A stretch of DNA of 46,249 nt from positions 1 through 46,249 of the forward strand of contig JAFGMQ010000112.1 in the NCBI GenBank assembly GCA_016927455.1, in the 5' to 3' direction. Source of the DNA: Deltaproteobacteria bacterium. GTDB taxonomy: Bacteria; Desulfobacterota; DSM-4660; Desulfatiglandales; Desulfatiglandaceae. Each line of letters starts with the position of its first letter. Within the stretch, counting starts at the first letter, position 1. The notes beneath the pieces were generated by a model. It was not told where the DNA came from, searched no databases, and saw only the letters and a list, made by a program, of their open reading frames with translations. Below are positions 33,401 through 44,516 of the stretch, one piece after another. Position numbers and translations under genes: made by a program.

Positions 33401-36400
33401 CTGTAACACTTGATCTCTACCCTGAGGCACGCCTTACAGCCCGTGGAAAGAAGGGTGTTTATCTCAATGAAACTGACGGAGATATGTACGTTGACACCAT
33501 GTTTTCTCCTGACCGTGTGGACCTGTTTGCTGATAGATCGATTCTGGATGCATTTACCGGGAATTACCTGAATGTCAGGACAAAAATACTCAATCTGAAC
33601 GCAGGCATGGCCATAGGATCGAAGGATGTAACTGACATAAACTACCTTGAAATAGATCTCTATCCGGAGGGTCTCCTAAATGCCTATGCAGGAGACGATA
33701 TCAATATATCCGAGACAAACGGCAATATGAACATTGGAGAGATTATCTCCTATTCCGGTGATGTTGGTCTACATGCCGCGGTATCGATTATTGACAGGGA
33801 TGATGAAATGTTCCCCGATATTACAGGCAACAATATCACCCTTGAAGCACTGATAGGTGGCATCGGGGCTTCAGAAAACGATCTGGACATCGACAGTGCT
33901 TTCTCGGATGCCGGCAGCCTTAATAGCAGCAGCGCCTTAAATACATATCTCACCGAGACAAATGGGGATCTGGGTATCCACAGGATAACCACAGGCATGG
34001 ATTATACCGCATTTATCGGGAGTGGCGCATCAATCCTTAACGCCAGGGTTGATGAAGAAGATAATATTGTATCCGGTTCTGCGTGGCTGTTTGCTGACGG
34101 GGAAATCGGGACAGAGGCCAGCAGGATAAGTACCACTATCGGTCATCTTGAAGGACGCGCTGTCCATGGCAGCGTATGGCTGGTTAACCAGGGGCACCTG
34201 ATTATTGGCGGTGTTACTGAAGGAGATGGAATCACGGTTGAAGGCAGCCTGGTTATAACGGCGAGGAGCCCAATAACCGTAATAGAGCAGATTGAGGCTG
34301 GCAATATTATTCTCACCACAGAAGATAACACCGATAATGATAATCTGACTGTTCAGACAGGGGGCAATGTTATCTCCACCACTGGCTCAATTATAATGTA
34401 TTCCGGTGACGACATTATTATTGAGGCCGGCGCAACCCTGCAATCCGCAGAAGTTGTAGAGCTGTATTTGGACTATTTTAACAGTGACCCCGGAACCGGC
34501 GGTCTCCTCCAAATGTCCGGGCTGGCGACAGGGGCTTCGGTTCAGGTATTCGGCAATATCGATAATGATACGATAGCGATAACAAATGTGGTTTCTCCGA
34601 CGATCATTAACACAGCAGAGGGGGATGATACGATATTTTTAGGCAGCAATGCCTCCCCTGACAGCAATGTTGATGGTAATATCAGGAATATTCTTGAATT
34701 TATTGATATTGATGGAGGATCAGGCAATGATTCTCTGTGCCTGGATATTACCGGAGAGGTCGATGGCGTTACCGGAACAGTGACCGAAGACATTATTACC
34801 GGTTTTAACATGGGTACAGACGGAGAAGTACAGTATATAAATATTGAAAATCTGAATCTAAGCCTTGGAAATGGGAGCGATACTATCAATTTTCAGGGGA
34901 CTTCAGCCGGTACAGTTACCAGCCTGGATGCCGGCGAAGGGGATGACATAATTAATATATCATCCGATGCCCCGGCAAACATGGGAAACCTGGATAATAT
35001 TAACGGTATCCTGAACATAGACGGAGAAGCAGGAGATAATACCCTTAATGTAAGCGATGCAGGATCAACTGTCGCAGATACGGATGTGGTAATCACAGAT
35101 ACAAGTATATCCGGGATGGCGCCGGCTGTAATAAATTTTACAGCAACCGGCGGTACATTTGACGGCAGCATAAATATAATCATGGGAACAGAATCAGACT
35201 TAATATCCATTGAAAGTATAAGAAATGATGCAGTTACTGCAATATCAGGAAATGATGGGGATGATACAATCATTGTCGAGGCAACAGTTACTTCCGGTCA
35301 CCTGGAGATACATGGAGATACCGGGAATGATGTTATTGATGGTTCAGATGCTCCGGCAGGCGCTGAACTGGTCCTGATCGGAGGTTCGGGTGCAGACGCA
35401 TTAGCAGGCGGTCAGGGAACCGATGTTATGTTTGGCGACGAAGCGATAATAACCCGTGATAGCGCCCATAACATTATTCAGGTAGAATCAGATCAATCAG
35501 TTACCGGAGAAAATGATTTAATCCGGGGCAATGGCGGGGATGATATCCTTGTCGGCGGCTCTGGTGAAGATAATATTTGGGGCGGTGATGGCGATGACAT
35601 GGTAATCGGTGATAATGGAAGTATTGAGTATACATCTGGAATAGTAACATTTATCGAAAGCACAGATGCCGGTGATACAACTACAGGAGATGATGTAATC
35701 AATGCCGGTGCGGGTGAAAATTATGTAATTGCCGGCGGTGGAAGCGATACAATAACAGGTGAATATGGAGCCGATTATGTAGTTGGTGATCACGGTTCCA
35801 TGGCATATACTGCTGCAGGAATTATTACTCAGATAACAACCAGGCTGGATAATCTTGGCGGTGACGATACTCTGAATCTGGGAGATGGAAACAATGTTGC
35901 CACAGGTGGCCAGGGTTCGGATCTAATAACAACCGGAACAGGTGCTGACATTCTCCTTGGAGATTCAGGTACGTTTAATATGGATGCGACCGGAGTCATA
36001 ACTTTAGTTGAAAGCAGCAGCACTGGACAGGGTGGAGATGACACTGTATACTCAGGTGATGGTAATGATATTGTAATCGCCGGGAATGGATCAGATACGA
36101 TCGATAGCGGAGCGGGTAGTGATATCATTATAGGCGATAATGGATTTGTCCGGTTTGCCGATGGTATGCCGGTGGTGGCCGAAACAAGGAAGACTGCCTT
36201 GGGTGCAGCCGATTATCTTGACGATGGAGAAGGCACAGATATCCTGATTGGCGGTGAGGGCAGAGATATTGTTAAAGGCGAATTTCCCACTGATTCCATT
36301 ATCTCCAGATACGGAAGAGTTGTTCTGGAGGATCTCAAGATTATCACTATTTATCCGCCTTTCAGCCAGATACCGGGAAGCTATATGTCGCAGGAGAGAT

Positions 36401-37128
36401 ACTCTCTTCCTGATCAGGTTCCTTTAGCAGGGCCTGACAGGTCACTGTTTATGAATAAAGAAACCGAAGTCATAACGTCAAGTCCGGTTATCTCAGGACC
36501 TGGTGAAGCTTCTGGTCAGGATCTTTATTACAGTCAGGAGACAATGATTGCGGGAAAAGAAAACAGAGAGATAGTAACCAGGGTCTTGCCGGGCGGTGCA
36601 ATAGCAAAGAGCTATCCCAATGGAATGGTAAGAATTATTGAGCCTGACGGATCAGTTATTGTTGAATCACCTGAGGGTACAGAGAGGATCATCGGGCTTG
36701 ATAATATTGTAACCATTCTTTATCCGAACGGTATTAAATTAGTCAGGTATCCGGACGGTTCTTCAATTACAACATATCCTGACGGCAGGATAATAAGGGT
36801 ACTGCCCGATGGTACTGTAATCAACAGTTCTGCTGAGCTTGAAGGTGAAGAACTCAGGCTCAACAGGTTGATGCTGCAGGCCAGAAGGGATACCGATGGT
36901 GTGTTTGATATTGGTGAAGAAAGAGAAGGTTTTACCAACTTGAAAAGAGGGAATAACTCTGATAGGATTGCGCCGAAAATTGATGTTGGAAAAATGGTGG
37001 CAGGTCTGACTGGGTGGGGATTGTTCTCTTTAAAGAAATCCAGTGATGGGAACCTGATTGACCGGGACAGTTTCAGTAAACTGGACAGAAAAAACAGACT
37101 GCGACATTTTATCAAATGGAGTAACTGA
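9418..37128 (+). CDS. Giant LEPR-XLL/DUF4347 repeat adhesin with RTX-like and G-box-like C-terminus (9,236 residues)
   Basis: One open frame of 27.7 kb. Order of regions: basic N-terminus with LEKRLLLSADP (34-44, a LEPR-XLL variant); DUF4347 (about 115-305); short RTX-like GGDDTL/SGDDTI stretches (304-400); LktA-like beta-strand repeats (about 460-2760) with a flagellin-hook-like insert; five super-repeats of about 360 residues (about 2760-4440); more beta repeats; GSW repeats (about 5187-6060 and 6530-6760); a Tyr/Trp-rich patch; TGD modules and FHA-like strands (to about 8380); RTX-like blocks (about 8600-8950); eight 9-residue YPDG units (9066-9137); a basic tail. There is no Sec signal, sortase motif, C-terminal barrel or TPS domain. 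I noticed only five cysteines, as expected for an exported protein. It is probably a surface adhesin or matrix protein that folds outside the cell with calcium. No frameshift in 27 kb implies selection. Export by the neighbouring tolC/HlyD/M50/SecA-like genes is inference; the target surface is unknown. Confidence 0.95.
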   Translation: MSQLKKIAHKLKSLSNRPSGKRGPERRRMLFETLEKRLLLSADPIAASQDLQQKDLMADAVPVFTVETLSIDTGSTDFQHADVPPLSVKADEGVLSKENISSQLSYLLSEDIGSQIVIIDSSVPDYESLIEKLFEVSDSAENKDGHKATGMNSDEGYKAPSYEIMVLDSDRDGIEQITEILGQYDQVSAIHVISHGSGGMMHLGNSIIDRDSLEEYSGTLSAWQESLTEEGDILLYGCNIADGELGISFITELSRQTGADVAASTDASGSQELGGDWELEYSTGVIESMPLFTGQNMSAYSHLLADINVDGTTGDDTITVDFESLSITGGSAPVAPNTRDNYLIDGLGGDDTLIIQGTSGDDTIDISDSGITINGTTYSILLNSITSIEDLMIIGGDGTDSVTISDSLAIANVNLSIKSETISVNNSIDTGSGLISLDVTSEDNSVFGNSSSYITINNSTLRGSDINISAESRVTAEASLELNLPVDVALINVTSDAIVSITGASRLESTGDVTINATSTTETTARSLASMNGSISADASVATSIVAGSAAVRVTGTSAFNVGGAISINATNNRTVTTIADGAAGGETAAGGSVAVATITGDTEAYLGEGSTVETAGSISINANKLDRITTSAKSTSGGASETEGSTATEKTLSDNNAETSEGAVTIAGAVAVNTLTGNTGAYIDSSQVVTTSGMLSVNSMDNTDSSVRADGSSVGSASAGVGAGVAINVVQINNEAYLGGTGIITAGNVEVNAGMAEKTGEETLSGMLSAEAISGANGGTVGVAGALALNVVDATSRAEIESGAQVTITGGGDVSLTAENTTESRAIAQPANEGATAGSVGVGASVALNIANTTTIAQLAGTSVLTGANDLSLKATSDNTVVTTAKAGGAASGGSGVGVGGAIAISVANNETSTIIGRGTDLTLTGALSEEANHKGSTTTSADGSAGGASAGIGVALGLNVVNDSTIATTERNITAGGDIMFAAHAAAASSAGSKASASGAEEESDTPDDKGVDKKIGAERGLADKKAEERGTKGTGDSADTPAAETSSGGVSVAAAVGVNIAESTASACIPDAEIPGNGLIITSGGLLTLSSGNNTDATAKADGSATSDGGTSIGAAVAINLVSAVNEAYVGEDSTINADWLTIEAKKTEESGDTTGKIGAEAISGASGGKVGIAGSLALNIADSRNDALIKDGARVTLNEGDVTLTAEGATESTVLATAKGAAVAPENKVTAAGDTDLITKDTVIGAEKGQLSVEPAGTGTDDIRFTLRDGSTISVSLNGITKVQEILDKINNDSENNGKLFAEFNEAKQRFVLTDKTTATTGESSESTSVTMTGNPVFYRREGGTAVTAPTSGSATSEELNFALRVGTENQRFYVTVANKTYTGTDAEMKAEWLSDIKEAIRLEMVAAGQLKAADAAVVDVKFVAGKLVFGSTKTMTIWTDTTEGSAVSFKVEALNSSKTRSQLGLEKTTSNTDGTVITGSLLKTVGGEEATPVSDGGSLGIGASVGLNISNNTSTARIENNAIIEGTVNNISLSADSETKATTTSTAGGEAKGGSGVGIGGAISIAVSNNDMTAEVGSGQLLDIDGDFAASATHKGETITKADGSASGGSAAVGIALGLNVVNDRTLATTNRVIDSAGDMKFEAVNTSTSSSEAKASAKGAEGESSEGGSSENVDKKVGDQRKLADDKAEETGKKGTGDAAETPAAETSDGGVSVAAAIGVNITLSEATAYIPDNGQVISGGTLTLTSSNNTDASSKADGSAVDPENTSVGVGAAVAINYADVTNISHIGKDAQVTSNGLVLNADMTADEKPFELTNISETRDSINLGEDHGLQTGDMIGYDNGGGDSIGGLTSEQTYYVVMDDTRSFNIIPHNIDDLGVEALNTFRDGMAKVGINIDEIGGSIDYSENWIDLGADHFLKDGDLVVYSKGNFLNSGAIGGLKDGATYKVDVDEASPTRIKLLDPDTDAVQDLTFSAENISFFDHKFTIVNPVAVKLAAIPEDAMNGKTIDLMAGATGDEQKLIEKSHSFNTDATSGAGASNVGVAGSLALNIITNHTEAVIKSGASVETGTGDISITAENIENDSANAASKVSGGKVGVGASVAMNILPVNVTRAEIEDTAVLTGGHDLTLNAESGHSVFTTVKAGAAGGTAVSPAVAVAYINDDTSSSIGTPDGDAIDVTGKVNMQASHTGTAKTTVDASVAGEKVAVGAAVGINIITDSTIVTAERDISAGGAVSIDAITDQYSKMDITASAKGNKSEDETKEGETAPRNSDDEAQAQANAATGGTKTLPKANDSLDNANNKATEKTGDENGENGTGSSSVGVAAAIGVNWVISDNEASIADGINVEAGGALEVKAESETDLDTKAIGAALSFDSDTGVGAAVGLNVGIVTNSATIGSSSNIDANGISVQAVTPEDKTNDFAVWALAVGGGKDNGVAGSAGINVMVMDTEASAGHDATLASSDYIDIEAENDTSHQNIAGGGGVGKKAGVGVAVAANIITMNTDAYIGENTHADATEKIFINSDSSITPVNFEIPGMGSLGFGVSSIAAGGGVSTSSEGKAAVGGSAIVDVIIQNTQAYVADGVQINTDPALVAGIDQGVVVDATSLTRIINGAGGLAVAFGGTGVGIGLDVGVIVKDTSAYIGNSATVNADNDVTISAASTEDITSVAVSAGISKENGIAGSLAVFVLTAGTRAVIEGESGKITTVNAGGNVTLSATDSSSLNTIAFTVAAAGKTGVGAAGSVNVITNNVLAEISGSTVGSEGDVSLTATSSPIIRSLGIGVSGSGENAVAINASGNGVANTVKALINEGSTVTAEGNVHLSAKDEAGFIIPTWMIDEGVQEDLNTALEESPIDLKSSILAVNVSVAGSGQKAVGVSLMGNVVTNNIATEISSSTVRAGVDVDDIDTIVNAEADVSMDAYSKAGILAVTVGVGASGDLAVQGTGFGNVITNRTEALISSGSVVRSADDITIKAEDDSSIKSLGLSIAASGSNAIGAIVGANVIVNSVTSEIAGSQVDSGDSLELKALANSDIMAFTGGVAASGSTAVLVSLSANVVTNTTRAVISDQVINNVNHRTDIDAGGTVDVSAKDSSTIDSLAFGVSGSGSTAVGVGIGANVVANTIASSVTGSDLETDSTLDITSESSAIIRTLAIGVSGSGSVAVQVTAMGNAVTNTVSSTISEGSIVTAAGDVTITAKDIAPSLIPDWIVSEDRADDLTKSLDGTPIDLDANILSVMVSVAASGSVAVNAALVGNLIANTVTAEISGSDVESTSGAIDLDALSKAGIIGLTVGVAGSGSVAVNATGYGNVITNRTKSIISGESTVKADDLIGLTAKDSSQIRSLGVSVAGSGAVSVGALIAANVITNSIEALISGSTAESGSNLNLSAENDSDILGLTVGVAGSGAGAGMLSLTANTITNTTRAAITGEEGVRSDIDTDGAINLTASDISEINTLAIGVAGTGGGAVGAALAANIIINKAETEISESDIITGSTLLLDSSNSSIIRALAIGVSGSGGFAVQLTAMGNVISNETSSVISGSDVEAAGNINLSAEDKSPSMIPFMDAVGSYITDEDTVQDLKDALSGSPIDPTANIISLMVSVAGTGGVAVNGAFTGNVITNNIETLIHASEVVSDTGIINLDSDSKAGILALTVGVAGSGAVAVNATGFGNIITNTVSSKVTGGSSITTSSDSGDITLNADDTSQIRSAAVSVAGTGGIAAGALIGANVITNSVITEVRGSTVNSGSKLELTSENDSDILGLSVGVAGAGAGAGILSLTGNTITNTTKAAITGEVNDRSDIDTTGAVNLTASDTSEINTLAIGVAGAGGGAVGAAVSANVIANTTETEISYSDLFSGSTLEMDSSNSSIIRTLAIGVSGSGGGAVQISAMGNVIANNTSSVINNSNVTADGNISIKAEEKSPSMIPLMDAIGSFIVDADTRESFADALEDSPFDPRANIMAFMLSVAGSGGVAVSGAFTGNVITNSITTEISGSKVTSLSVSISEESVSSAGIASISVGVGGSGAAAVSAVAFGNTITNTVKSVVSDTSVLDSEGELSINATDDSMIRSVGLSIAASGGAALSFIGAVNTITNTVTTGFSGSTLEKGTNLDISSLSDSNIYSFTGGIAASGAVAAQISLSGNIINNEVTSKINNSHVDLTGTVDVSSIDSSTIDSVSVGVSASGAAAAGAALSENHIGNTISASVEDSNVEADLDINVISREAATIRSLAAGLSGAGGASGAASVTLNQIGNQIASSINDSTVTSAGGDITVYASDELPTADFDNMLLPAKVKSSKALNDTEYDRSANIISFAGSIAVAGGVAGSAAVSDNEINNTINASIDGSSVAATTGDVLVETVSSAKIVAVSAGIGAAAGTALNASSSENEIDSTVLSGIINGSVIEAGDDVNVTAKDISEINAFSLSLAGAIGAALGGAKVTNTISTDTIAYMTGNSTDSTRIDNADEVLAKAYSGQKATGKTLGATLGIVSGGASIASGTINGSTMAYVDDHVEIGTENGKSIDNLNVQAISDSSVISEATAMAAGIGAGTENSVTSTITPTITAYIGSNVVVKLTGSGGIMAQSRVKASADTKGITLSLTGSVGASNAKTNVAPAVSAYVAGGSTIQSAPSVTDPYNFEIRANRDVLNGDSATATAKGSAGGLLFGAVGTSSESVDSGTVSAYIGDESGLSTTIAMSGTTTVYADLNAKQTATASGKSGGIVAAGSNEAVVISNTLTEAYLGSNVTVTGKSLDIHAVGTDDNFANVIAGSGGLVAGSASTGKTINNSRTRVDVGTGSGTKVDVSGDFKVMSEHTANFRAASDSTTAALVGASGSTVINSVEADVSMDFGSGIEINAGAIDVDANNIISKITVGYDVVAGSGGLAGGPAASSSTVITDRTEITVGNGAKLIVNGAGGINFLSNNQVNATDKTKLDSGGAIALAKAKTTIVNHVNTNNIYIGDALLRNTVGDIDLSVRSSANVLSQSNASTYGVAGAAQGDSFASVHANSKLILADGAEIEAKGDISLKVGEGSNLDVKAYTDLWNKTALPVKNDPYAHGEAIQSNLIDIQSGASVASDTNVYIDSQKGSTNAIGKGNAKDLYREVLAAIANFFGSIFGAKPVSLDIKTSSSRSDSSGNINIDGYVRSSAHNIQTLKIANTDEQFAPISISNQGNGEPEITINADSDTILRTDGGSWSTDGFEEGQFIVLDGTSGSDGIYQIKTIAGSEIVLEDDLVGTGTHMAKVYVVDNYIANNPVQLVTSGTLDFNAASNTISRNDGIEWSVDGFKEGQYIRVSGAGSGNDATYRIMDIAGNILTVNGSIQSAPGITAGIVVLAVRENATYASMDRTPLPDLTYTNRRTSLHRTDGGSWIMDGFLTTSDNITIGGTTYNVVSVTESEIMLDQVEFTPGPATGVNVSTQIDSLNARVRFVTQYTDPSEIEWSGQNWGDYGFQAGDTIRVSDADGSGNNTVTGFLIQSIDQEVIRLDAGVSLTNAVDTNGVTVEKDVAIASGTTLTFTAATQTITRSGGDWDQNVFKAGQNISFTNAGTLNTGTYTILSVAGDTITLENAPLLQNDTDNNGATITLSITTAGNVVFRATVNHDARIERYNPVNGNPVDWSNTYQAGHTITIANADETANNGTYTIKSVVNDVISIEENIGVEDLVDGGLSGTNVTVNASTTVNVNYVTNNARIDRSVGSWATDGFNGGQTIYITNSSNNNDDGNGYVISSIINGGQTLVLGSGYDLQSGVEINTPARINTQSVNTFRAPDGTYMKLVRGDATTRDSIVLTDAAGDPITSGSDWSTYEFYAGQHIMVVGTQGGNNDGLYEINYVAANTLFLSPEGDRFQGTDGEILTASENVGVLGVYTQVEDIVAAMTEGTSLTFATNNTITRASGSWVTDRFIVGQEIVIDGADPENNGTYRIIDIDDTGTVLTLDANNMLGKGETGITGAKIVYSKPHTDRVTLPGNTIVSIYSSGNITTPNAITRNEGNWYDDGFQPGQYIFISGAVDSGNSGIYRIYAINDSGNTMTLDGSQSLGKDETNIGNVKITGVVVKEGDVTSLISRSEGVAMPTISVEDLAANIIAEIKDLEAEKQKFGVQGTEAEAGLNAQIDHLNYQLEELGLMTPNGPKSMMVTYIETPEIVAQSGDIIITGDNLTGTGQLDAPGDATISIENNSPYYLRVNNELTINNVGGNITFNGARVYDNETIQQRNSSGVASFSSITTSKSSPDPLIKIRNTYNPPPAGDLATAPPPDIEIVGTTILNSDGTVRIYNKEGSIFIKDDKSTEPATRVSIQAKTVEIKAGKDVIIAVDTHNVGSDPETAWSSIAASNEAIDKIDSSGNYINQNGDGSWGSSQGHVSQDGSTIAGNNVFITARVLNINGPIQSGIAEHSLTLTNGMMTQSGRTLSEEIQFLRDSQKTEWITLIGDDSKALDIEVQYDYATDRLIVDNVETQGGLIKLTGHIIATDTDGLLKVMDGYGNITIDNQTEWDIAIQNLKTGEDKELLLSGAAWRVSGNDWLIKANDTISFNSGENSITRQYGSWQKDGFYEGQKILISGAEGVYSVNNSVDENDVYIVQSVGDKTLILTSDKILAASGAAEATSSLTVSGLWLTIAGDTVTRSGGSWIDDGFYVDQYIRITGSANTDIYKVAGFTETDLILVNIDNSQASLTGESSISTPFEVAGNWITFSNNGTSDIISRNAGSWLDEGYRDGMTIVVSRSNGSYDGEYQIIHATDTTLELDTSVMLNNETNLETGLEIQGLGNGIEGKVVITDTAYDLDPSADVYKPLITTYTRIGNNLQITDNNDITSNVVINDSRVAGYQAQPGQRYYWVTGQSESSYKREYWVSSSFWGITYAEGQPYADYIYNEATPQELLPYGNFPNDTTADESLATVGYQYEFVPLDVNTYVTQTRWITTSGWWIFSTEHNHLVQETTVGSVTYDYHSVKADYPIGIEFIGDDSGTITVNSVNDIYLNAVITNTQGTTTITSSAGSIYQEKDRAIIRSGGSLYDNGSEQFVAGEINLNAPNGSIGNFDEGGTLKPVRTDLSGGVFNATAQGLIAISEIEEKLTIGNVISSGGDVYITADGGIVAENGSSMIVGENINLNSISGGIGDAAIEIKINSNIDNIYDANNRSGEVTAKAFDDIYIRETDGDLRVVSMESLDGDIHVATDSGDLIDANTIESVDVRTEEELVDLWNGMNLLDGGGSDENQQAYKDIRTREYNTYWNYRTGNSLVFDLHTQVDGVTEEISFDTDHGFTTGDALIYRVIDGSEGSCELADNVTYYAIVVDATTIRLAASRDNALAGIGIDIEAASSDGHASLTRMLDYDPDYQIVFSAEERDMYKSQLNWDDARIDLEQNKRTEEFHDLHNRYSVLGDTYNPDWTYDLIRQNGMPDAKNPGYEPEFDPASAVDSVNNTITIGPHLFSTGTGVVYNVNGGTAIDGLTDGTLYYIIKIDNYTIQLAESEEDASNGIAIDIDAAGASINPNPDANNLINTGHELSDIDAIASNSIWSEDQLRYAIGIGWLKETTDTDIRVEDPNLIGKNIVMDISGSIGEHLTEQKILVHSNTDMEIVEDVSISFDPSAVDNIANSIAVSGYLYRTGTSVVYNNVTSPPAAITGLENGKTYFIRVNSDSTISLALTEQDAKDGTNLIDIDPSGAAGTHTLDLDQVEKTRRAKAAIAAAEKEDLISIKAETDTISFGNLHNLNAGDPVIFGNSGTIGLSDVPGVTNGVTYYAGVVDEFTIKLYASSDDAQNVINPIDITESDARIAQRDDIDIQSGGKITIVTIATSVGDMGEGGTPANLTDAENEAINNADPEDIITIDSADNSITFGTPHGILTGDAVNFGKYGTFKISDIPGVTDDVTCYARVVDDFTFKLFDTKENASGTDDTGIINITQSEIRIFRAEENSYQVDIKAGTFIFIGSETDIYIGEVISGTSSTSLTNMEREIRIKTGGGIYDSQGSSAINFTGGNIILEAANGSIGIDGIPVTLDLYPEARLTARGKKGVYLNETDGDMYVDTMFSPDRVDLFADRSILDAFTGNYLNVRTKILNLNAGMAIGSKDVTDINYLEIDLYPEGLLNAYAGDDINISETNGNMNIGEIISYSGDVGLHAAVSIIDRDDEMFPDITGNNITLEALIGGIGASENDLDIDSAFSDAGSLNSSSALNTYLTETNGDLGIHRITTGMDYTAFIGSGASILNARVDEEDNIVSGSAWLFADGEIGTEASRISTTIGHLEGRAVHGSVWLVNQGHLIIGGVTEGDGITVEGSLVITARSPITVIEQIEAGNIILTTEDNTDNDNLTVQTGGNVISTTGSIIMYSGDDIIIEAGATLQSAEVVELYLDYFNSDPGTGGLLQMSGLATGASVQVFGNIDNDTIAITNVVSPTIINTAEGDDTIFLGSNASPDSNVDGNIRNILEFIDIDGGSGNDSLCLDITGEVDGVTGTVTEDIITGFNMGTDGEVQYINIENLNLSLGNGSDTINFQGTSAGTVTSLDAGEGDDIINISSDAPANMGNLDNINGILNIDGEAGDNTLNVSDAGSTVADTDVVITDTSISGMAPAVINFTATGGTFDGSINIIMGTESDLISIESIRNDAVTAISGNDGDDTIIVEATVTSGHLEIHGDTGNDVIDGSDAPAGAELVLIGGSGADALAGGQGTDVMFGDEAIITRDSAHNIIQVESDQSVTGENDLIRGNGGDDILVGGSGEDNIWGGDGDDMVIGDNGSIEYTSGIVTFIESTDAGDTTTGDDVINAGAGENYVIAGGGSDTITGEYGADYVVGDHGSMAYTAAGIITQITTRLDNLGGDDTLNLGDGNNVATGGQGSDLITTGTGADILLGDSGTFNMDATGVITLVESSSTGQGGDDTVYSGDGNDIVIAGNGSDTIDSGAGSDIIIGDNGFVRFADGMPVVAETRKTALGAADYLDDGEGTDILIGGEGRDIVKGEFPTDSIISRYGRVVLEDLKIITIYPPFSQIPGSYMSQERYSLPDQVPLAGPDRSLFMNKETEVITSSPVISGPGEASGQDLYYSQETMIAGKENREIVTRVLPGGAIAKSYPNGMVRIIEPDGSVIVESPEGTERIIGLDNIVTILYPNGIKLVRYPDGSSITTYPDGRIIRVLPDGTVINSSAELEGEELRLNRLMLQARRDTDGVFDIGEEREGFTNLKRGNNSDRIAPKIDVGKMVAGLTGWGLFSLKKSSDGNLIDRDSFSKLDRKNRLRHFIKWSN
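9517..9549 (+). other. LEPR-XLL-type N-terminal motif
   Basis: Residues 34-44, LEKRLLLSADP, preceded by a Lys/Arg-rich stretch (RRRMLFET). The usual form is LEPRxLLSA; here the proline is lysine. In other giant proteins this short motif sits close to the N-terminus and has been proposed as a sorting signal. No hydrophobic signal sequence precedes it, so it is the best candidate for the export address of this protein. Confidence 0.75.
9760..10330 (+). other. DUF4347 domain
   Basis: Residues about 115-305. It opens with IVIIDSSVPDYESLI and contains VSAIHVISHGS, DILLYGCNIADGE and TGADVAASTDASG, ending in GDWELEYSTG. These are the conserved blocks of DUF4347, found near the N-terminus of very large repeat adhesins in diderms. 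The His-Gly and YGC motifs give it a hydrolase- or caspase-like look, but no activity is established. Confidence 0.8.
13081..13908 (+). other. Non-repeat insert resembling flagellar hook/FliD-type modules
   Basis: Residues about 1222-1498 interrupt the beta repeats. The first half runs IRFTLRDGSTISVSLNG, then KVQEILDKIN and FAEFNEAKQRFVLTD, the layout of flagellin-hook IN motifs (tsLxdIvdaIN, then a strand ending in LT). The second half, with RFYVTVANKTYTG and SRSQLGL-like text (SKTRSQLGLEK), may be a second copy. Homology is my reading of the pattern only. Confidence 0.45.
14869..15420 (+). repeat. Two TGD-type modules inserted among the beta repeats
   Basis: Two copies of a roughly 65-90-residue module: DHGLQTGDMIGYDN, then GLTSEQTYYVVMDD; and DHFLKDGDLVVYSKG, then GLKDGATYKVDVDE. 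The same module recurs five times near 31159-33140. Acidic, beta-rich; function unknown. Confidence 0.6.
17701..22750 (+). repeat. Five tandem protein super-repeats of about 360 residues
   Basis: Sub-units of about 50-60 residues read like SVAGSGAVAVNA, GNVITNT, SxISGSxVxS, LxLxAxxxSxI. A marker segment (A-K/E-D-x-(A/S)-P-S, Ile-Pro, then a P-(I/F)-D motif and ANI) recurs at 17911, 19027, 20092, 21184 and, degenerate, at 22255. The spacing is 1116, 1065, 1092 and 1071 bases, i.e. 372, 355, 364 and 357 residues. Repeats are clear in protein but diverged in DNA. Confidence 0.8.
24976..27590 (+). repeat. GSW repeat block 1 (about ten copies)
   Basis: About ten copies of a roughly 65-90-residue beta module with the core I-x-R-x-x-GSW-x-x-DGF-x-x-GQ-x-I-x-ISG, then N-x-GTY-x-I and a hydrophobic strand ending in LTL. 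Best copies: ITRASGSWVTDRFIVGQ (near 27090) and ITRNEGNWYDDGFQPGQ (near 27380). Three further copies lie at 29005-29690. The motif also occurs in phage-related and other giant bacterial surface proteins; its ligand is unknown. Confidence 0.75.
27640..27840 (+). other. Short helical/coiled-coil segment in the all-beta adhesin
   Basis: Residues about 6075-6140 are rich in Leu, Glu, Lys and Ala with heptad-like spacing (LAANIIAEIKDLEAEKQ, then AQIDHLNYQLEELGL). It is the only obvious amphipathic helical hairpin I see in the giant protein and may be a hinge or interaction site. Confidence 0.55.
29005..29690 (+). repeat. GSW repeat block 2 (three copies)
   Basis: Three further GSW modules: ITRQYGSWQKDGFYEGQ, VTRSGGSWIDDGFYVDQ and ISRNAGSWLDEGYRDGM, each followed by a YxI strand and a hydrophobic strand. 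They are separated from block 1 by about 1.4 kb of other beta sequence and the helical segment. Confidence 0.75.
31159..33140 (+). repeat. Five TGD-type modules
   Basis: Five copies of a module of about 65 residues: a strand with HGFTTGDALIY-type text, a GLxxGxTYYxxVVD strand, then (I/L)xLAxSxxDA and IDI. Copies begin near 31170, 31670, 32190, 32520 and 32920. Spacing is irregular because other segments intervene. One intervening stretch (about 30990-31640) is rich in Tyr, Asp, Asn and Trp. Confidence 0.65.
35221..36279 (+). repeat. RTX-like calcium-binding repeats
   Basis: Residues about 8602-8954 contain six blocks with GGxGxDxhx-type nonapeptides, for example GGSGADALAGG, GNGGDDILVGGSG, GGDGDDMVIGDNG and GAGSDIIIGDNG. 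Each block ends in GD(N/H/S/E)G and is joined by a beta hairpin of about 25 residues. Such repeats bind calcium and fold outside the cell in type I secreted proteins. Confidence 0.85.
36613..36828 (+). repeat. Eight exact 9-residue YPDG units (G-box-like)
   Basis: Residues 9066-9137 divide without gaps into eight units of nine residues (27 bases each). Most begin (Y/E/S/L)P(D/N/E)G, such as YPNGMVRII, YPDGSSITT and LPDGTVINS; the fourth unit (GLDNIVTIL) is degenerate. The period and the YPDG turn match the Tcp10_C/G-box beta-sheet of eukaryotic CPAP and STIL-partner proteins. Homology versus convergence is open. Confidence 0.7.
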
Positions 37129-37270: not shown

Positions 37271-37585
37271 ATGGCCCAGAAACAGGATGAAAAGAAAGAT
37301 GTGAAAGATGAAAAAGTTGCAACCCAGACCTTGCGCTGGGATGATTCAAAAATGACCAGTACATATGCCAATGTATGCAATGTCTCCAGCACCAGGGAAG
37401 AGGTTACACTGCTTTTCGGGACAAACCAGAGCTGGTATACGGGTCAGCCTGAACTGACAGTCCAGCTGTCAGATCGAATAATCCTGAATCCTTTTGCCGC
37501 TAAAAGGCTGTCCATGCTTTTGAACAACATTATAAGGGAATATGAGGCGCGTTTCGGTGAGTTGAAGATTGAAATGCCGAAATAA
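37271..37585 (+). CDS. DUF3467 family protein
   Basis: A 104-residue soluble protein. After a charged, Lys/Asp/Glu-rich N-terminus (about 20 residues), it shows the DUF3467 hallmarks: TYANVCNVSSTREEVTLLFG at about 34-53, a middle strand pair ending SDRIILNPFAAKRLSMLL, and the closing helix with EYEARFGEL. There is no signal peptide, so it is predicted cytoplasmic. A strong GAGGAGG ribosome site precedes it, suggesting high output compared with the adhesin. It is the last gene before the 37637-37673 terminator. The family has no settled function. Its place beside the export substrate suggests a small cytoplasmic helper, for example a chaperone or assembly factor, which is inference only. Confidence 0.85.
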   Translation: MAQKQDEKKDVKDEKVATQTLRWDDSKMTSTYANVCNVSSTREEVTLLFGTNQSWYTGQPELTVQLSDRIILNPFAAKRLSMLLNNIIREYEARFGELKIEMPK

Positions 37586-37743: not shown

Positions 37744-39612
37744 GTGGGTGAAAGCAAAATTGATGAAGAAATGAAATTTCGGCCCAGGATTGACAGCCAG
37801 TTGTGGTCAGAATTTATCTATGCACATGAAAGAGATGATTTCAGTCGTTGCTGGCTGACCCTTCAATGTTCGATCCTTTCCAATGTGAAGCAGGGGATTG
37901 TTATTTTAGCTGATCACGGAAAGGAAACATATACGCCTTCTGCAATGTGGCCTGAACAGGGTGGGAAACCTGAGAGACTTACTGAAATATCTGAGCGGGT
38001 CCTGGAAGAAAAATGCGGTATGCTGGTTGAACTCAATCAAACTGAAAACATTCTGCCCGTTTCCATACGCAGTTATGGTATGGCATATCCCATAATGACG
38101 GGTGAAGAATTTTGCGGACTTGTTGCACTGGAAGTAGTTGCAGAAACAGAAGATCAACTGAAGTATACCATGGAACAACTTCAATGGGGGATCTCCTGGA
38201 TGGAGGTTATGCTCAGGCGTGAAAAGGAGAAAAATGTAAAGGGCTCTCTTGAAAGACTCAAATCCTCTGTTGATCTGCTGGCAGGCGTCCTTTCCAAAAA
38301 AAGCTACATCAGCGCCTGCATCTCTTTTGTTACGGAGCTTGCAACATGTCTTGGATGTGATCGGGTGAGCCTGGGTTTTGTTAATAATAGAAAGATCAGG
38401 GTTGAAGCTGTTTCACACAGCAGTCGGATTTCAGATAATATGAATCTGATTCAGGCGATTGTAAAAGTAATGGAAGAGACTGTTGCTCAGCGGAAAGAGA
38501 TTTGTTATCCACCCTCTATAGATGATCGCCGGATAATCAGGGATCATGAGATACTGGCCAGGCAGCATGGGGCAGAATATGTCCTTTCCGTCCCTTTTTA
38601 TGATGGACAGCAATATTCTGCTGTTATCACCCTTGAAAAATCAAAAGGTCTCCCCTTTGGAATTGATGATGCATTGTATTGTAACAGTGTCGCGTCACTT
38701 ATAATACCTGCGCTTGAATTAATGCGTCAAAAAGAGAGGACTATCCCGCTGCTTGCATTTGATGGATTAAAAAATCAGATAAAAAAATTATCAGGATCCG
38801 AATACACAGGAAGAAAGCTGCTGATCCTTTTATTAATAATCCTGGTTATTTTTTTCAGCCTTAAAAAAGGCGATTATAAAATCTCCGCAAATAGTGTCCT
38901 TGAAGGCGCATTAAAAAGGGTGATTGTCACGCCATTTGAAGGTTATATAAAAGATGCCTTTGTAAGAGCAGGGGATTATGTAGAACAGGATGAAAAGGTA
39001 TGCCTGATGGATGACAGGGAACTGCGGCTTGAGCGGTTGAACTGGGCAAGTAAGATTACCCAGTACCAGAAGCAGTATGAGGAAGCACAGGCCATGCATA
39101 AAAGGGCTGAAGCAAAAATAATAAAGGCCCAGCTTGATCAGGCTGCTGCCCGTCTTGAACTTGCAGAAAACCAGATACAGAGAACTCTTTTGACAGCCCC
39201 TTTTAAAGGGCTAGTGCTGAGCGGGGACCTGAGCCAGCGGCTGGGCGGCGCTGTGGCAAAGGGCGAAGTCCTATTTGAAATAGCTCCTCTTGATCAGTAC
39301 AGGATTATCCTTGAAGTGGATGAGCGCCGTATTACGGATGTATCTGCAGGACAGCAGGGTATGATGGTATTATCAGCGCTGCCCAATGAAAGTATAGCTT
39401 TCACTGTTGAAAAGATTACCCCCATTACCCTGGCAAAGGAAGGTCTGAATTATTTCCGTGTTGAGGCAAAGCCATCAGGTTTTATGGGCAGGCTAAGGCC
39501 GGGGATGGAGGGTGTAGGCAAGATATACGTGGACAGGAGAAATCTTTTTTCCATATGGACAAGAAATATGCGGGAATGGTTTAGGCTTAAGATGTGGGAA
39601 TATCTTTTATAA
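37744..39612 (+). CDS. GAF-GAF-TM-HlyD fusion: sensor-linked membrane fusion protein
   Basis: A 622-residue fusion. The N-terminal half is cytoplasmic and GAF-like: a degenerate module at about 15-165 and a clearer one at about 175-335 (ELATCLGCDRVSLGFV, then GAEYVLSVPFYDG and AVITLEKS). One membrane helix (about 359-375, LLILLLIILVIFF) follows, then a periplasmic HlyD-type adaptor: a lipoyl half-motif (VIVTPFEGYIKDAFVRAGD), a short alpha-hairpin (about 430-475), the second lipoyl half (LLTAPFKGLVLSGD) and a beta-barrel (IILEVDERRITDVSAGQ). Ordinary HlyD adaptors have only a short cytoplasmic tail, so the GAF part is unusual and may tie export to an internal signal or partner. GTG start; its stop abuts the next ATG with no gap. 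An alternative start is ATG 37771. Confidence 0.88.
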   Translation: MGESKIDEEMKFRPRIDSQLWSEFIYAHERDDFSRCWLTLQCSILSNVKQGIVILADHGKETYTPSAMWPEQGGKPERLTEISERVLEEKCGMLVELNQTENILPVSIRSYGMAYPIMTGEEFCGLVALEVVAETEDQLKYTMEQLQWGISWMEVMLRREKEKNVKGSLERLKSSVDLLAGVLSKKSYISACISFVTELATCLGCDRVSLGFVNNRKIRVEAVSHSSRISDNMNLIQAIVKVMEETVAQRKEICYPPSIDDRRIIRDHEILARQHGAEYVLSVPFYDGQQYSAVITLEKSKGLPFGIDDALYCNSVASLIIPALELMRQKERTIPLLAFDGLKNQIKKLSGSEYTGRKLLILLLIILVIFFSLKKGDYKISANSVLEGALKRVIVTPFEGYIKDAFVRAGDYVEQDEKVCLMDDRELRLERLNWASKITQYQKQYEEAQAMHKRAEAKIIKAQLDQAAARLELAENQIQRTLLTAPFKGLVLSGDLSQRLGGAVAKGEVLFEIAPLDQYRIILEVDERRITDVSAGQQGMMVLSALPNESIAFTVEKITPITLAKEGLNYFRVEAKPSGFMGRLRPGMEGVGKIYVDRRNLFSIWTRNMREWFRLKMWEYLL

Positions 39613-41757
39613 ATGTCCTATTCTCTTTTCAGTGAATCCTGGTACAGGGTCGCGGAACTTAAACCGCGTCTACGCAGTCACGCCCGGATACATCATCATG
39701 TATACAGGGGAAGGGACTGGTATGTACTGCAGGATCATTCCACGGGAACCTATCACCGGTTTTCAAATGAGGCCTATTACATAATAGGGCTGATGGACGG
39801 ATCAAATACCCTGCAGGAGATCTGGAAAACGGCCTGTGAAAACCTGGGTGATGATATGCCCACCCAGGATGAGGTAATTAATCTTCTATCACAGCTTCAC
39901 CAGGTTGATATGCTCCAGAGCGATATTCCCCCGGATATCGCCGATCTGTATAAGCGTCACCTGCGCTATAAAAAAAATAGTATGATAAACAGGATCAGAT
40001 CTCCGCTCTCAGTCAGCATCCCTCTGCTTGATCCTGAGAAATTTCTTTCTAAAACAGTATTTTTAACACGACCTGTTTTTAGCAAAATCGGAATTACCAT
40101 GTATTGTATAATACTGCTGTCAGCAATATATCTTGCCATGGTTCACTGGTCTGAACTGACCGGCAACCTTGCTGACAGGGTGCTGGCGCTTGAAAATGTA
40201 TTTCTGTTGTGGCTGGTCTATCCTGTAATAAAAATATTCCACGAATTCTCCCATGCATATACCATCAAACACTGGGGAGGGGAAGTTCATGAGATGGGAG
40301 TAATGTTTCTGGTATTTGTTCCCATACCATATGTGGAGGCATCTTCTTCTATTGCATTTAAGGAAAGGTATAAAAGAGTCATGGTTGGGGGTGCAGGGAT
40401 CATGGCCGAGCTTCTGCTTGCCGCTCTTGCAGTCCTGGTATGGGTAAATGTAGAACCGGGAATTGTAAGGGCAGTATCATTTAATGTCATAATAATTGCA
40501 GGGGTGTCGACATTGCTGTTTAATGGTAATCCTCTGCTGCGTTTTGACGCCTATTACATATTGTCTGATTTAATTGAAATACCTAATCTGGCAATGAGGG
40601 CCAATAAATATATTGGTTATATTCTACAGAGATATCTCCTGAATGCGGAGGATGTCCAGAGCCCGGTAACCGCCAGGGGCGAGGCGCCCTGGTTTTTATT
40701 TTACGGTATGGCATCTTTCGTATACCGTATGTTTATCATGGTCAGAATCGCGGTATTTGTGGCAGGAAAATTTTTTATTATAGGGATAGCCTTTGCTTTG
40801 TGGGGGCTTGCGGGGATGCTGATTATGCCACTCGTAAAAATCTTTAAATTTTTATTTACAGATCCTTCTATGCAGCATAAAAAAGCCAGAGTAGCCGCTG
40901 TTACTGGTTTTTCATTGCTGTTTCTTGTTTTGTGTCTTTTTATAATACCGCTTCCCTCTTTTACTGTTGCGGAAGGTGTGCTCTGGGCGCCTGACAGCTC
41001 AAGACTCCATGCCGGAACAAACGGTTTTATTAAAGAAATACTTGTAACCCCTGGGAAAGAGGTCCAAAAGGGGACCCCGTTAATAAGGTGTGAAAATCCC
41101 GAATTGATTACAGAAAAAAAGGAGCTGGAATCCAGCCTGGAGGAGTATGAGTTAAGGCTTGAACTCGCAAGGACAAGGGACAGGACGGAAACAAAGATAC
41201 TCCAGGATGAAATAGAGCGAATAGAATCCGGGTTAAAGGATCTTGCGGATAAACTTGACAGTCTTTTGATCCGCAGTCCTCATGACGGTATTTTTTTGCT
41301 TCCTGAATATGAGAATCTGCATGGTCAATATTTTATACGGGGCGCCCAGCTAGGATATGTGGTTGACTTTGATAAGGTAACTGCCATGATAGTGGTAACA
41401 CAGGAGGATATTGACAGGGTACGAACAGAGACAGAAGATGTTGAAGCGAAACTTGCGGAGAATATAAAAGAAACTTACCATGCGTATGTAAAGAGAGAGG
41501 TTCCTGCAGCATCTCCTGAACTTCCAAGCCTTGCACTGAGCCTTGAAGGAGGCGGCGAACTTGCGCTTGATCCAAAGACAAAAGAGAAACTTAAGGCCTT
41601 TGAAAATCTTTTTCATTTTGAAATAGTAATTGAGAGCAGGCATTTATCATCAATTGGTGAAAGGGTGTTTGTCAGGTTTTATCACGGGCACGAACCTTTG
41701 TTTTCGAAGGGTTACCGTGCTGTAAGAAGGGTATTGCTCAGTAAATTCAGTGTGTAA
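39613..41757 (+). CDS. PqqD-like/M50 site-2-type metalloprotease/HlyD fusion, multi-pass
   Basis: A 714-residue polytopic protein. Residues about 10-115 resemble PqqD, a RiPP recognition element fold (YHRFSNEAYYIIGLMDGSNT, then LLSQLHQVDML). The membrane core holds an M50 peptidase: HEFSH (His210, Glu211, His214) in a membrane segment, and NPLLRFDAYY with Asp312 as third zinc ligand, so the active site looks intact. Several helices follow to about residue 450, then a periplasmic lipoyl/HlyD part (GFIKEILVTPGKEVQKGT, a coiled-coil hairpin, and LLIRSPHDGIFLLP). This matches the putative peptide zinc metalloprotease family found in peptide export clusters. It could process the adhesin leader, form the inner-membrane path, or both; neither is proven. 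It starts directly after the preceding stop and ends two bases before the SecA-like start. Confidence 0.88.
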   Translation: MSYSLFSESWYRVAELKPRLRSHARIHHHVYRGRDWYVLQDHSTGTYHRFSNEAYYIIGLMDGSNTLQEIWKTACENLGDDMPTQDEVINLLSQLHQVDMLQSDIPPDIADLYKRHLRYKKNSMINRIRSPLSVSIPLLDPEKFLSKTVFLTRPVFSKIGITMYCIILLSAIYLAMVHWSELTGNLADRVLALENVFLLWLVYPVIKIFHEFSHAYTIKHWGGEVHEMGVMFLVFVPIPYVEASSSIAFKERYKRVMVGGAGIMAELLLAALAVLVWVNVEPGIVRAVSFNVIIIAGVSTLLFNGNPLLRFDAYYILSDLIEIPNLAMRANKYIGYILQRYLLNAEDVQSPVTARGEAPWFLFYGMASFVYRMFIMVRIAVFVAGKFFIIGIAFALWGLAGMLIMPLVKIFKFLFTDPSMQHKKARVAAVTGFSLLFLVLCLFIIPLPSFTVAEGVLWAPDSSRLHAGTNGFIKEILVTPGKEVQKGTPLIRCENPELITEKKELESSLEEYELRLELARTRDRTETKILQDEIERIESGLKDLADKLDSLLIRSPHDGIFLLPEYENLHGQYFIRGAQLGYVVDFDKVTAMIVVTQEDIDRVRTETEDVEAKLAENIKETYHAYVKREVPAASPELPSLALSLEGGGELALDPKTKEKLKAFENLFHFEIVIESRHLSSIGERVFVRFYHGHEPLFSKGYRAVRRVLLSKFSV

Positions 41758-41759
41758 TT

Positions 41760-43757
41760 ATGATTAGCCAGCCAGCAGATATTCCTCCAGCATCTCATAT
41801 CATCCGGCCGGAAAGAGTGGATAAAGCTTCAGGTATGCTCGACATAATTAGCAGTAAGATCATTACCTCTGTGTCATCCTCTTATAAACTGCGCGGAAGG
41901 CGGATGAAAAAATTTTTAAAACGGGTGGAGTATTATGGCAGAGGGCTTGATAATTTAAGCGAAAAAGACCTGAGTGAAAAGGTCGAAATGCTGAAGCAGC
42001 TTCTTCATAAAGGTGGGCTGACAGAAGAAAACATCGCCGGTTCATTTGCACTGATAAGGGAGTTGTCTTTTAAGATACTGGGATTGCGTCATTTTGACAC
42101 CCAGGTTACAGGCGGCAGGATCATTCTTGATGGGATGGTGGCCGAAATGGAGACCGGAGAAGGTAAGACCCTTACAGCTACTCTTGCTGCCGGGACAGCC
42201 GCGATGGCGGGCATACCGGTTCATGTCATTACAGTTAATGATTACCTTACCGAACGGGATGCCGAATGGACCAGGCCTTTGTATACTGCTCTTGGGCTTA
42301 CATCAGGCTTTGTTATTCACGGTATGACCCCGGAAGAAAGAAGAAATGCGTATTCACAGGATATTGTATATTGCACCAATAAGGAGATAGTATTTGACTA
42401 TCTCAAGGACTGGATAATTCTTGGTAACAGGCAAGACAGATTAAAGCTAAATGCTGAATATCTGTATGATAAAGATCAGCGGATAAAAAGGCTTTTACTA
42501 AGGGGCCTCCATTATGCCATTGTGGATGAAGCAGATAGTGTCTTGATTGATGAAGCAAGAACCCCGCTGATTATTTCCGGCCAGGGTGAAGGTAGCGCAG
42601 ATGAACATGAGTTTTTCCGGCAGGCGGTCGATCTGGCGCAAAAATTGAATAAGGACACTCATTTCACTGTTGATAAGGCTGATCATATAATAAAGCTTAC
42701 CCCTGAAGGGGAAGAGATGGTAAACAATGCTGCTGTGTGTCTCGGGCCTTTATGGAGGGGAAATGTCAGAAGAATGGAGATTGTCAGACTTGCCCTTTCA
42801 TCGATTTATTTTTTTAAAAGGGATGAACAGTACATGGTCCGTGACGGGAAGATCCAGATTATTGACGAGTTTACAGGCAGGGTGATGCCTGACAGGTCAT
42901 ACGAGAAGGGGCTGCACCAGTTGATAGAGATAAAGGAGGGATGTGAAATCTCAAATCAGTCCGTAGTACTTGCACGAATCAGTTATCAGAGGTTTTTCAG
43001 GCGCTACTTGAAACTCGCCGGTATGACCGGTACAGCACGTGAAGTAAAGGGAGAGCTTTTATCAGTCTATAATCTTCCCGTTGTAAGAATCCCCACATAT
43101 AAAAAGAAAATAAGAAAATCATATCCGGACAGATTCAGTGTTACGGAAAAGGAAAAATGGGAAGATGTTGCAGACAGGGTCACTGATTTTCATGAAAAAG
43201 GGAGGCCAATCCTTGTTGCAACCCGTTCGGTAGTCGCGTCCGAAAAGGTGGGAATGATTCTTTCAGGCAGAAATTTGCGATTCAGGATTCTTAACGCCAA
43301 ACAGGACAGGGAAGAGGCTGATATAATCGCAGAGGCTGGAAGAGAAGGAAAGATTACAATTGCTACCAATATGGCAGGCCGTGGGGTGGACATCAAACTT
43401 GAAGAAAAAGTTAAAGCACTGGGAGGGTTACATGTTATTATCACAGAACGGCATGAGGCCGGGAGGATAGACCGTCAGCTGGCTGGGCGGTGTGCGCGCA
43501 TGGGCGACCCTGGCAGTTTCGAGGCAATACTCTCGCTTGAGGATACTGTTCTTGAAAAAGACAGGGGGGGATTCTGGAAGATGCTGGCGCTTTATTATCC
43601 TCTGAAAAAGTCCGTGCCATGGCGTTTTTTTTTAAAAAAGGCGCTCTTAAGTGCGCAGAAGAAAACAGAGAAAATCCACGCAAAAATGAGAAAAAATCTT
43701 CTGAAGGAAGATGAAAGGCGTGGTAATGTACTGTCGTTTTCAGGCCGTTCGGAATAG
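41760..43757 (+). CDS. Shortened SecA-like translocase ATPase
   Basis: A 665-residue SecA paralogue. It retains MAEMETGEGKTLTAT (Walker A Lys136), VDEADSVLIDEARTPLIISG (Walker B around 256-259), the preprotein cross-linking region (about 275-385), the IIDEFTGRVMPDRS and LAGMTGTA motifs, TNMAGRGVDIKL (about 536-547) and the arginine-finger region QLAGRCARMGDPGS. After the LSLEDTVLE motif the chain goes only about 80 residues, ending in a helix like the start of the SecA scaffold (AQKKTEKIHAKMRKNLL). The helical wing, two-helix finger and zinc-binding C-tail are absent; normal SecA has 800-900 residues. The second position of motif II is Glu-Ala instead of the usual Glu-Val. It is clustered with export genes, so I read it as a dedicated motor, not the housekeeping SecA. 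Two bases separate it from the M50 gene. Confidence 0.92.
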   Translation: MISQPADIPPASHIIRPERVDKASGMLDIISSKIITSVSSSYKLRGRRMKKFLKRVEYYGRGLDNLSEKDLSEKVEMLKQLLHKGGLTEENIAGSFALIRELSFKILGLRHFDTQVTGGRIILDGMVAEMETGEGKTLTATLAAGTAAMAGIPVHVITVNDYLTERDAEWTRPLYTALGLTSGFVIHGMTPEERRNAYSQDIVYCTNKEIVFDYLKDWIILGNRQDRLKLNAEYLYDKDQRIKRLLLRGLHYAIVDEADSVLIDEARTPLIISGQGEGSADEHEFFRQAVDLAQKLNKDTHFTVDKADHIIKLTPEGEEMVNNAAVCLGPLWRGNVRRMEIVRLALSSIYFFKRDEQYMVRDGKIQIIDEFTGRVMPDRSYEKGLHQLIEIKEGCEISNQSVVLARISYQRFFRRYLKLAGMTGTAREVKGELLSVYNLPVVRIPTYKKKIRKSYPDRFSVTEKEKWEDVADRVTDFHEKGRPILVATRSVVASEKVGMILSGRNLRFRILNAKQDREEADIIAEAGREGKITIATNMAGRGVDIKLEEKVKALGGLHVIITERHEAGRIDRQLAGRCARMGDPGSFEAILSLEDTVLEKDRGGFWKMLALYYPLKKSVPWRFFLKKALLSAQKKTEKIHAKMRKNLLKEDERRGNVLSFSGRSE

Positions 43758-43769
43758 AAAGGGATTATT

Positions 43770-44516
43770 ATGAAATTATGCAAAAATCCGGTTATACGTA
43801 TTTTTTTTATATTAATATTAGTTGCTTTAAATGCTCAGCATGTCCATGGGGAAGAAAAATATTTTGAGGGTATTATTGAACCAAGTGAGCTTGTTAAGGT
43901 AAGCAGCTCGGTTGAGGGTATTCTGGAAGAGGTTTTTTTTGATCGTGGTGAAACTGTAAAGAAGGATCAGATCATCGCATTTCTTAATTCCAATATAGAA
44001 AAGGCTGCGGCGGATCTTGCACTGGCCAGAGTGGATTTCAGCAGGAGGAAGGTTGAAAGGAATGAAGACTTGTATAAAAAACAACTTGTTTCCATACATG
44101 ACAAGGATGAGATGGAGACTGAACTTAAGATAGCCGAACTTCAATACAAAGAGGCCCGGGAAAAGGTTGAGATAAAAAATATCCGAAGCCCTGTGGATGG
44201 CGTGGTTGTTGAACGGTTTCTTTCCAGGGGAGAGTATGTGGGCGATGAGCCGATTATGTCAATTGCCCAGATTGATCCACTCTATGTTGAGGTTGTTATA
44301 CCATCCGAGGAGTTTGGAAGAATAAAGAAAACAACACCCGCCACAATAAAAATTGAAAATCCTGTTTTCAGGGAATTGACTGCAATAGTCAGTGTTGTGG
44401 ACCCGGTTATTGACGCCGCAAGCAGTACAATCGGAGTACGCCTGGTTTTGCCGAACCCGGGGTACTCACTTCCTGCGGGTATAAAGTGTAAAGTGTTTTT
44501 CATCTCTTTGCAGTAA
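43770..44516 (+). CDS. Short periplasmic adaptor (RND/HlyD-type membrane fusion protein)
   Basis: A 248-residue exported protein with a Sec signal peptide (about 1-27, cleaved after HVHG). The mature part has the lipoyl half-motif SSSVEGILEEVFFDRGE, a short helical hairpin (about 70-130: ALARVDFSRRKVERN, KDEMETELKIAELQYKEA), the second half IRSPVDGVVVERFLSRGEYV, and a beta-barrel ending in GYSLPAGIKCKVFF. It is compact and lacks the C-terminal membrane-proximal domain of RND adaptors. No RND pump gene is nearby. It stands 12 bases after the SecA-like stop, with AAAGGG as ribosome site, and is the last gene of the operon. With the two fused adaptors it makes three adaptor-type proteins for one TolC. 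Confidence 0.9.
   Translation: MKLCKNPVIRIFFILILVALNAQHVHGEEKYFEGIIEPSELVKVSSSVEGILEEVFFDRGETVKKDQIIAFLNSNIEKAAADLALARVDFSRRKVERNEDLYKKQLVSIHDKDEMETELKIAELQYKEAREKVEIKNIRSPVDGVVVERFLSRGEYVGDEPIMSIAQIDPLYVEVVIPSEEFGRIKKTTPATIKIENPVFRELTAIVSVVDPVIDAASSTIGVRLVLPNPGYSLPAGIKCKVFFISLQ

Follow-up and report, generated by a model that had tools for sequence, protein, structure and literature searches.

A PqqD-M50-HlyD protein as the candidate leader reader of a proposed dedicated exporter for LEPR-XLL giant surface proteins

Leader proteases in which a RiPP recognition element (RRE) is joined to an M50 core, as well as HlyD adaptors, TolC channels and SecA, are already known. Daptides came to light through the fusion of RREs with a site-2 protease, and their precursors have the motif ELExMEAP in common (PMC10036551). 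RRE-dependent processing of the daptide leader requires Leu(-7) and Met(-4), although these leader mutations were assayed with the RRE of MpaB and not with that of the protease (PMC10036551). Planctomycetes have a surface signal with the motif RRLxxExLExRxLLA (PMC8567305), and the LEPR-XLL leader of giant surface proteins appears to be the same motif.

The window analysed here, a stretch of 46,249 nucleotides from a deltaproteobacterial contig, encodes a protein of 714 aa (39613..41757, + strand) delimited by its open reading frame, Pfam and NCBIfam matches, the alignment of its relatives and a structure model, whose start lies 0 bp past the stop of the upstream gene. The Pfam scan showed that this single reading frame combines a PqqD/RRE domain, an M50 core and a HlyD arm (PqqD, Peptidase_M50 and HlyD_D23), which confirms the three-part architecture proposed in the original prediction. 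The closest NCBIfam model is daptide_HExxH (NF041824), which matches residues 18–404 with an E-value of 1.9e-44 and a score of 152.3 bits, about half of the 300-bit equivalog cut-off, so that the protein falls outside this equivalog. It has, as the daptide intramembrane metalloprotease does, an RRE fused N-terminally to an M50 core with HExxH and Asp, but its neighbourhood consists of TolC, giant, DUF3467, adaptor and SecA genes and is not a daptide cluster.

The PqqD/RRE domain (residues 18–102; 39664..39918, +), assigned by Pfam, the AlphaFold2 fold and Foldseek, is predicted to be cytosolic and constitutes the putative leader-binding part of the protein. The Pfam PqqD match (residues 37–100) has an E-value of 4.3e-4 on the full protein and of 3.4e-5 in a scan of the domain by itself, which exceeds the Pfam gathering score; the same family was matched in 58 of 77 relatives. 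The N-terminal 125 aa were modelled by AlphaFold2 with a pLDDT of 87 in the beta-beta-beta-alpha-alpha-alpha order of PqqD and RREs, and both this model and Foldseek place the domain within the PqqD/RRE superfamily, with three strands leading into three helices in a winged-helix fold. Among the Foldseek matches of the domain model are PqqD and the lasso RRE TbiB1, solved with its leader peptide, as well as a heterocyclase and a thioether enzyme of sactipeptides, the RRE matches reaching TM-scores to the target of 0.67–0.78 (TbiB1 up to 0.78). The best E-values belonged to GdmN-type carbamoyltransferases, matched over part of a large chain only, and coverage of whole targets of similar size was seen with the RRE matches. 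In the PDB profile search with the domain family the sole match, weak (E 0.077) and spanning the full domain, was PqqD (3g2b). The NCBIfam matches of the domain were PqqD, ScmD, ApyI, lasso PqqD and the daptide protease, all of them PqqD-type or RiPP leader-binding families, and the remainder were three single chance matches. The kinship with RiPP recognition elements that had been claimed for this domain is borne out by the AlphaFold2 fold and by the RRE–leader complexes found with Foldseek. A model of the domain lacking the leader-binding groove had been set in advance as an outcome against the leader-reading idea, and the fold-level half of this check came out in its favour, because AlphaFold2, Foldseek and NCBIfam all point to PqqD/RRE. 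It is quite likely that the domain binds the leader of the neighbouring giant.

The M50 core follows with the zinc-binding and catalytic motif HEFSH (residues 210–214; 40240..40254, +), in which His210, Glu211 and His214 are conserved in 81 of 81 relatives, and with the third zinc ligand, Asp312, within NPLLRFDAYY (40546..40548, +), equally conserved (81/81). All three zinc ligands that the protein had been said to retain (His210, His214 and Asp312) are therefore found at the expected residues and are invariant, as are Glu211, Asn304, Asn306 and Pro307, in relatives with identities down to 44%. These 81 relatives were gathered through peptide patterns at about residues 54–62 and 222–229, so the conservation of the catalytic residues was not imposed by their selection. 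Desulfobulbus rhabdoformis and Geomonas paludis, both culturable and non-pathogenic, are among the carriers found. The HExxH/Asp set is also retained in a much more distant PqqD-M50-HlyD branch. The HExxH motif and distal Asp ligand in membrane helices that characterize M50/site-2 proteases are both present, and the Pfam Peptidase_M50 match (residues 205–314) is weak, with an E-value of 7.4e-4 below the gathering score, like the PDB profile match of this part to 3b4r (E 0.053). Since the catalytic residues are invariant, their pattern indicates a protease kept active by selection. The only clear loss of an active site was seen in a relative of 405 aa (L018), in which AEVSK replaces HExxH.

The C-terminal HlyD-like periplasmic adaptor arm (residues about 446–695; 40948..41697, +) was recognised through HlyD_D23 (residues 463–632, E 4e-9) and through matches to MacA, MexA and AcrA, and has the barrel-sandwich and hairpin adaptor domain of HlyD/membrane fusion proteins. 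The model of the full protein (pLDDT 87) contains seven membrane-length helices (158–177, 193–220, 252–279, 284–304, 357–386, 388–416 and 424–444), which would put PqqD on one side of the membrane and HlyD on the other. The Foldseek matches listed for this full model are all of the HlyD type, so the search adds nothing on the M50 part.

The surrounding genes give the protein its context. A TolC-family outer membrane channel (7821..9353, +; OEP E 3.3e-48, TIGR01844 above cut-off) ends 64 bp upstream of the giant gene, and a small DUF3467 protein of 104 aa (37271..37585, +; PF11950 E 3.8e-23) lies between the giant and the cassette; of 80 loci, about 45 have its gene at this site, and it is likely an unrecognised component of the export system. 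The cassette itself is formed by a protein of 622 aa with a GAF-like region, one transmembrane segment and a HlyD part (37744..39612, +; HlyD_D23/HlyD_3, weak GAF_3 E 0.006), the PqqD-M50-HlyD protein, a short SecA paralog of 665 aa (41760..43757, +) and a periplasmic adaptor (MFP) of 248 aa (43770..44516, +; RND_mfp above cut-off). This gene order is near-invariant in about 80 loci, counted where the contig was long enough, from Desulfobacterota, Gammaproteobacteria (Vibrio, Marinobacterium), Betaproteobacteria and MAGs labelled as other phyla. The SecA paralog retains the DEAD, PPXD and NBD2 domains. It lacks the helical wing, the two-helix finger and the C-tail, because its alignment covers SecA residues 21–604 only and stops there. 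The borders of the SecA domains, which we take to place these three elements past residue 604, were assumed for this reading. In the 60 of 69 relatives in which the search motif was recognised, the distance from the Walker A region to the C-terminus is 531–543 aa, and the short length, judged from these sequences, is a family trait. Neither the window cassette nor the inspected cassettes of the distant branch showed an ABC transporter, which sets them apart from type I secretion.

The presumed substrate is a giant repetitive surface protein of 9236 aa and 945 kDa (9418..37128, +) with a LEPR-XLL leader and DUF4347. The leader, FETLEKRLLLSAD (residues 31–43, Phe31–Asp43; 9508..9546, +; NF012209 E 1.4e-7), lies after a basic arm and is followed by DUF4347; the N-terminus scores 30.8 and 34.3 bits against NF012209, above the 17-bit cut-off, so the leader that had been ascribed to this adhesin is real. 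Hydropathy windows showed no Sec-type hydrophobic region in the N-terminus of the window giant, nor was such a stretch found by hydropathy in any of 32 leaders, the one of the window included. The consensus of the giants' leaders is [F/I]-E-x-L-E-x-R-x-L-L-S-A-D. Glu(-2), Leu0, Glu(+1), Arg(+3), Leu(+5) and Ser(+7) are invariant over the 32 leaders and conservation falls past Asp(+9). Several of these positions were partly imposed by the pattern used in the search, and the HMM had already selected for the motif; Glu(-2) and Ser(+7) were outside the pattern. In the genome search the window leader (9493–9549) also scored 27.7 bits against the planctomycete family PF07595, exceeding its 25.5 cut-off, so that the LEPR-XLL leader seems to be the same motif as the signal of planctomycetes. 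A salt bridge between the invariant Arg49 of the PqqD domain and Glu(-2) of the leader, a pairing that had looked promising in the first handful of distant pairs, was dropped because one genome (G773) has Arg49 without Glu(-2). At the other end, a C-terminal [VIL]AG[FLVY]xxW motif recurs in giants from different bacteria, often with a basic tail behind it (window 37000–37128, and the ends of the reading frames upstream of the cassette in L032, L045, L050, L057, L086, L092 and L102), which possibly acts as an anchoring or sorting signal. In the locus L086 a second DUF4347 protein with LEPRIMLDAAAVATG (18244–20439) is encoded about 3 kb past the type A cassette.

The DUF4347 domain of the window giant (9763–10329), placed after the leader, contains ISHGS and YGCN, which resemble a His/Cys protease pair; from these motifs it is possible that the domain is an alternative self-processing domain. 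They bear on a different reading of the locus, in which the PqqD domain reads the leader while the membrane part is a receptor, gate or channel subunit, the leader being kept or removed by another protein such as DUF4347. All the evidence on recognition and linkage is equally compatible with this non-cutting reading, and the window giant, like several others, has DUF4347 after its leader, with the His/Cys motifs visible. The strict conservation of His210, Glu211, His214 and Asp312 over both branches is hard to explain without catalysis, however, and DUF4347 was detected near the leader in some giants but not in every one, so we consider a membrane part that does not cut unlikely. Cutting of the giant's leader by the M50 core is favoured with some reserve.

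The linkage between leader and protein could be followed across genomes. Among 297 genomes of Desulfobacterota, a close PqqD-M50-HlyD protein is present in six and a strong LEPR-XLL leader in five, all five within the six (Fisher p 3e-10); in the sixth (G203) a giant lies directly upstream, with its start beyond the contig edge. Among 197 genomes of Vibrionaceae, the protein was found in eight and the leader in seven, each of the seven also having the protein, on the contig of the leader (Fisher p 4e-12), and in the eighth (G349) the giant upstream is cut by the end of the sequence stretch examined. Both p-values are too small by some factor, since genomes and not independent events were counted, and the recurrence of the coupling in two phyla is the stronger point. 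The leader is present in 33 of the 50 cassette genomes reached through named loci, and some of those without a match show visible variants, e.g. IEAMEPRVLFSDG in L081; the giants lie mostly directly 5' of the cassette and on the same strand, in Desulfobacterota, Vibrio and others. This arrangement bears on the proposal that an unseen RiPP-like peptide is what the PqqD domain acts on, the linkage to the giant reflecting only a shared surface function. PqqD-M50 fusions are indeed known from RiPP clusters, but with a giant adjoining the protein in cassette loci and a co-occurrence with the leader near one to one in Vibrionaceae, a hidden peptide substrate is very improbable. A search with a degenerate nucleotide pattern of LEPR[h][h][FY]D leaders gave 12 matches, spread over 11 genomes, and on inspection the majority proved to be due to chance. 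Two MAGs estimated to be 95–96% complete (G082 and G135) have LEPRLLLDA-type leaders (FETLEPRLLLDA and FEPLEPRLLLDA; L118, L119 and L120) with no PqqD-M50 match and generic HlyD only; either the MAGs miss the PqqD-M50 gene or the leader has another reader.

Genes of the distant PqqD-M50-HlyD branch mostly accompany a GAF-like-HlyD protein and an MFP, with an outer membrane channel in at least one case, and neither SecA nor an ABC transporter was recognised beside them in the stretches inspected. Six of these loci have a giant with a variant leader nearby (of the LEPRxMFDAA/LEERIVLDAA type), the leaders being LFEQLEERIVLDAA (L170/L179), LEPRIMFDAA (L180) and LEPRMLYDGA (L184), and further LEPRIVFDAD (L182), LEPRLLFDGA (L262) and LEKRIVLDGA (L265); no leader was found in the examined flanks of several other distant loci, where the contig often ends. 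Since variant leaders occur without a SecA gene nearby, the leader tracks the PqqD-M50-HlyD protein and not the SecA paralog, a distribution that points to the former as the leader reader. It might instead be supposed that the leader is recognised by the short SecA paralog or the house SecA, and that the M50 protein serves as a scaffold and removes remnants or other substrates in the membrane. In favour of this, export signals are usually read by SecA proteins, and the short paralog occurs in the type A cassette only. These variant leaders beside loci with no SecA gene near, and the presence of an RRE in the PqqD-M50-HlyD protein and its absence from SecA, make recognition by a SecA decidedly improbable. 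The claim that the PqqD-M50-HlyD protein reads and cuts the leader thus stands in part: reading has good indirect support from the RRE fold, the kinship with the daptide family, the near-perfect coupling, also where no SecA gene lies near, and the leader core, and the two MAGs with a leader and no partner (G082 and G135) speak against a strict rule.

On balance, we regard the PqqD-M50-HlyD protein as the leader-reading, and probably leader-cutting, inner-membrane part of an exporter dedicated to LEPR-XLL giants. The sequence of events favoured by the modelled topology would begin in the cytosol, where the PqqD/RRE domain would bind the consensus leader [F/I]-E-x-L-E-x-R-x-L-L-S-A-D as an added beta strand, in the manner of RiPP recognition elements, and would pass the chain on to the intramembrane active site of M50. 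There the leader would be removed, by analogy somewhere between Arg(+3) and the SAD residues; the HlyD arm and the two further adaptors would couple the M50 site to TolC, the HlyD arms and TolC would form the conduit and the shortened SecA paralog would supply the push. What we infer here comprises binding, cleavage and its site, the driving force and the order of events, and also a role of leader cutting as an export checkpoint. The broader picture, an undescribed pathway in which a RiPP-type element reads the conserved leader of proteins as large as about 1.5 MDa, its cutting by an intramembrane protease licenses export, a finger-less SecA drives passage through HlyD/TolC and the same code marks planctomycete surface proteins, is put forward tentatively, as something possible rather than probable. 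No description of the LEPR-XLL/DUF4347/SecA-HlyD giant system was found in the searchable literature, whose coverage was partial, and none of the HlyD-arm fusion, of the dedication to megadalton substrates or of the SecA-containing, ABC-free cassette was found there either. The planctomycete form of the leader has reportedly been termed a novel export signal since 2004, and no reader of it was found in the searchable literature. For the export of near-million-dalton proteins without a Sec signal a concrete candidate is now offered, a testable reader that unites in one protein a leader-binding domain, the conserved site of a protease and the arm of a pump; if true, it would extend the leader logic of RiPPs from peptides to giant surface proteins.

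Compared with the known systems, the protein is closest to the daptide proteases MpaP/DapP (NF041824), with which it has in common an RRE at the N-terminus joined to an intramembrane M50 protease (a match of 152 bits for residues 18–404), and from which it differs by the added HlyD arm, the TolC/MFP/SecA cassette and a neighbour of 945 kDa in place of peptide-modifying enzymes. The daptide leader ELExMEAP and the LEPR-XLL leader share Phi-E-x-Phi-E, with Phe(-3), Glu(-2), Leu0 and Glu(+1) at the same spacing; this resemblance of the leader cores is suggestive only, because the parallel was drawn post hoc and the daptide mutations were tested with MpaB. The epipeptide maturation protease YydH/LiaK (NF058609) has a similar M50 core (E 2.8e-7), but its match is confined to the M50 region (residues 156–327) and its substrate is of another class. 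PqqD (5SXY/3G2B) and the lasso RRE TbiB1 (5V1V) have the same fold, strand and helix order and leader-binding family as the window domain, which differs in its fusion to a protease and an export arm and is about 20% identical in sequence. Type I secretion (ABC, HlyD and TolC, in some cases C39) likewise uses HlyD adaptors, TolC and a leader peptidase in the inner-membrane part, whereas the window cassette has a SecA paralog instead of an ABC transporter and M50 replaces C39. The accessory Sec (SecA2) export of large adhesins also dedicates a SecA paralog to a large surface protein, and the window system departs from it in a SecA without two-helix finger and wing, a cassette with no SecY2 and a Gram-negative envelope with HlyD/TolC. 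With the planctomycete surface signal (PF07595) the locus has the motif RRLxxExLExRxLLA in common.
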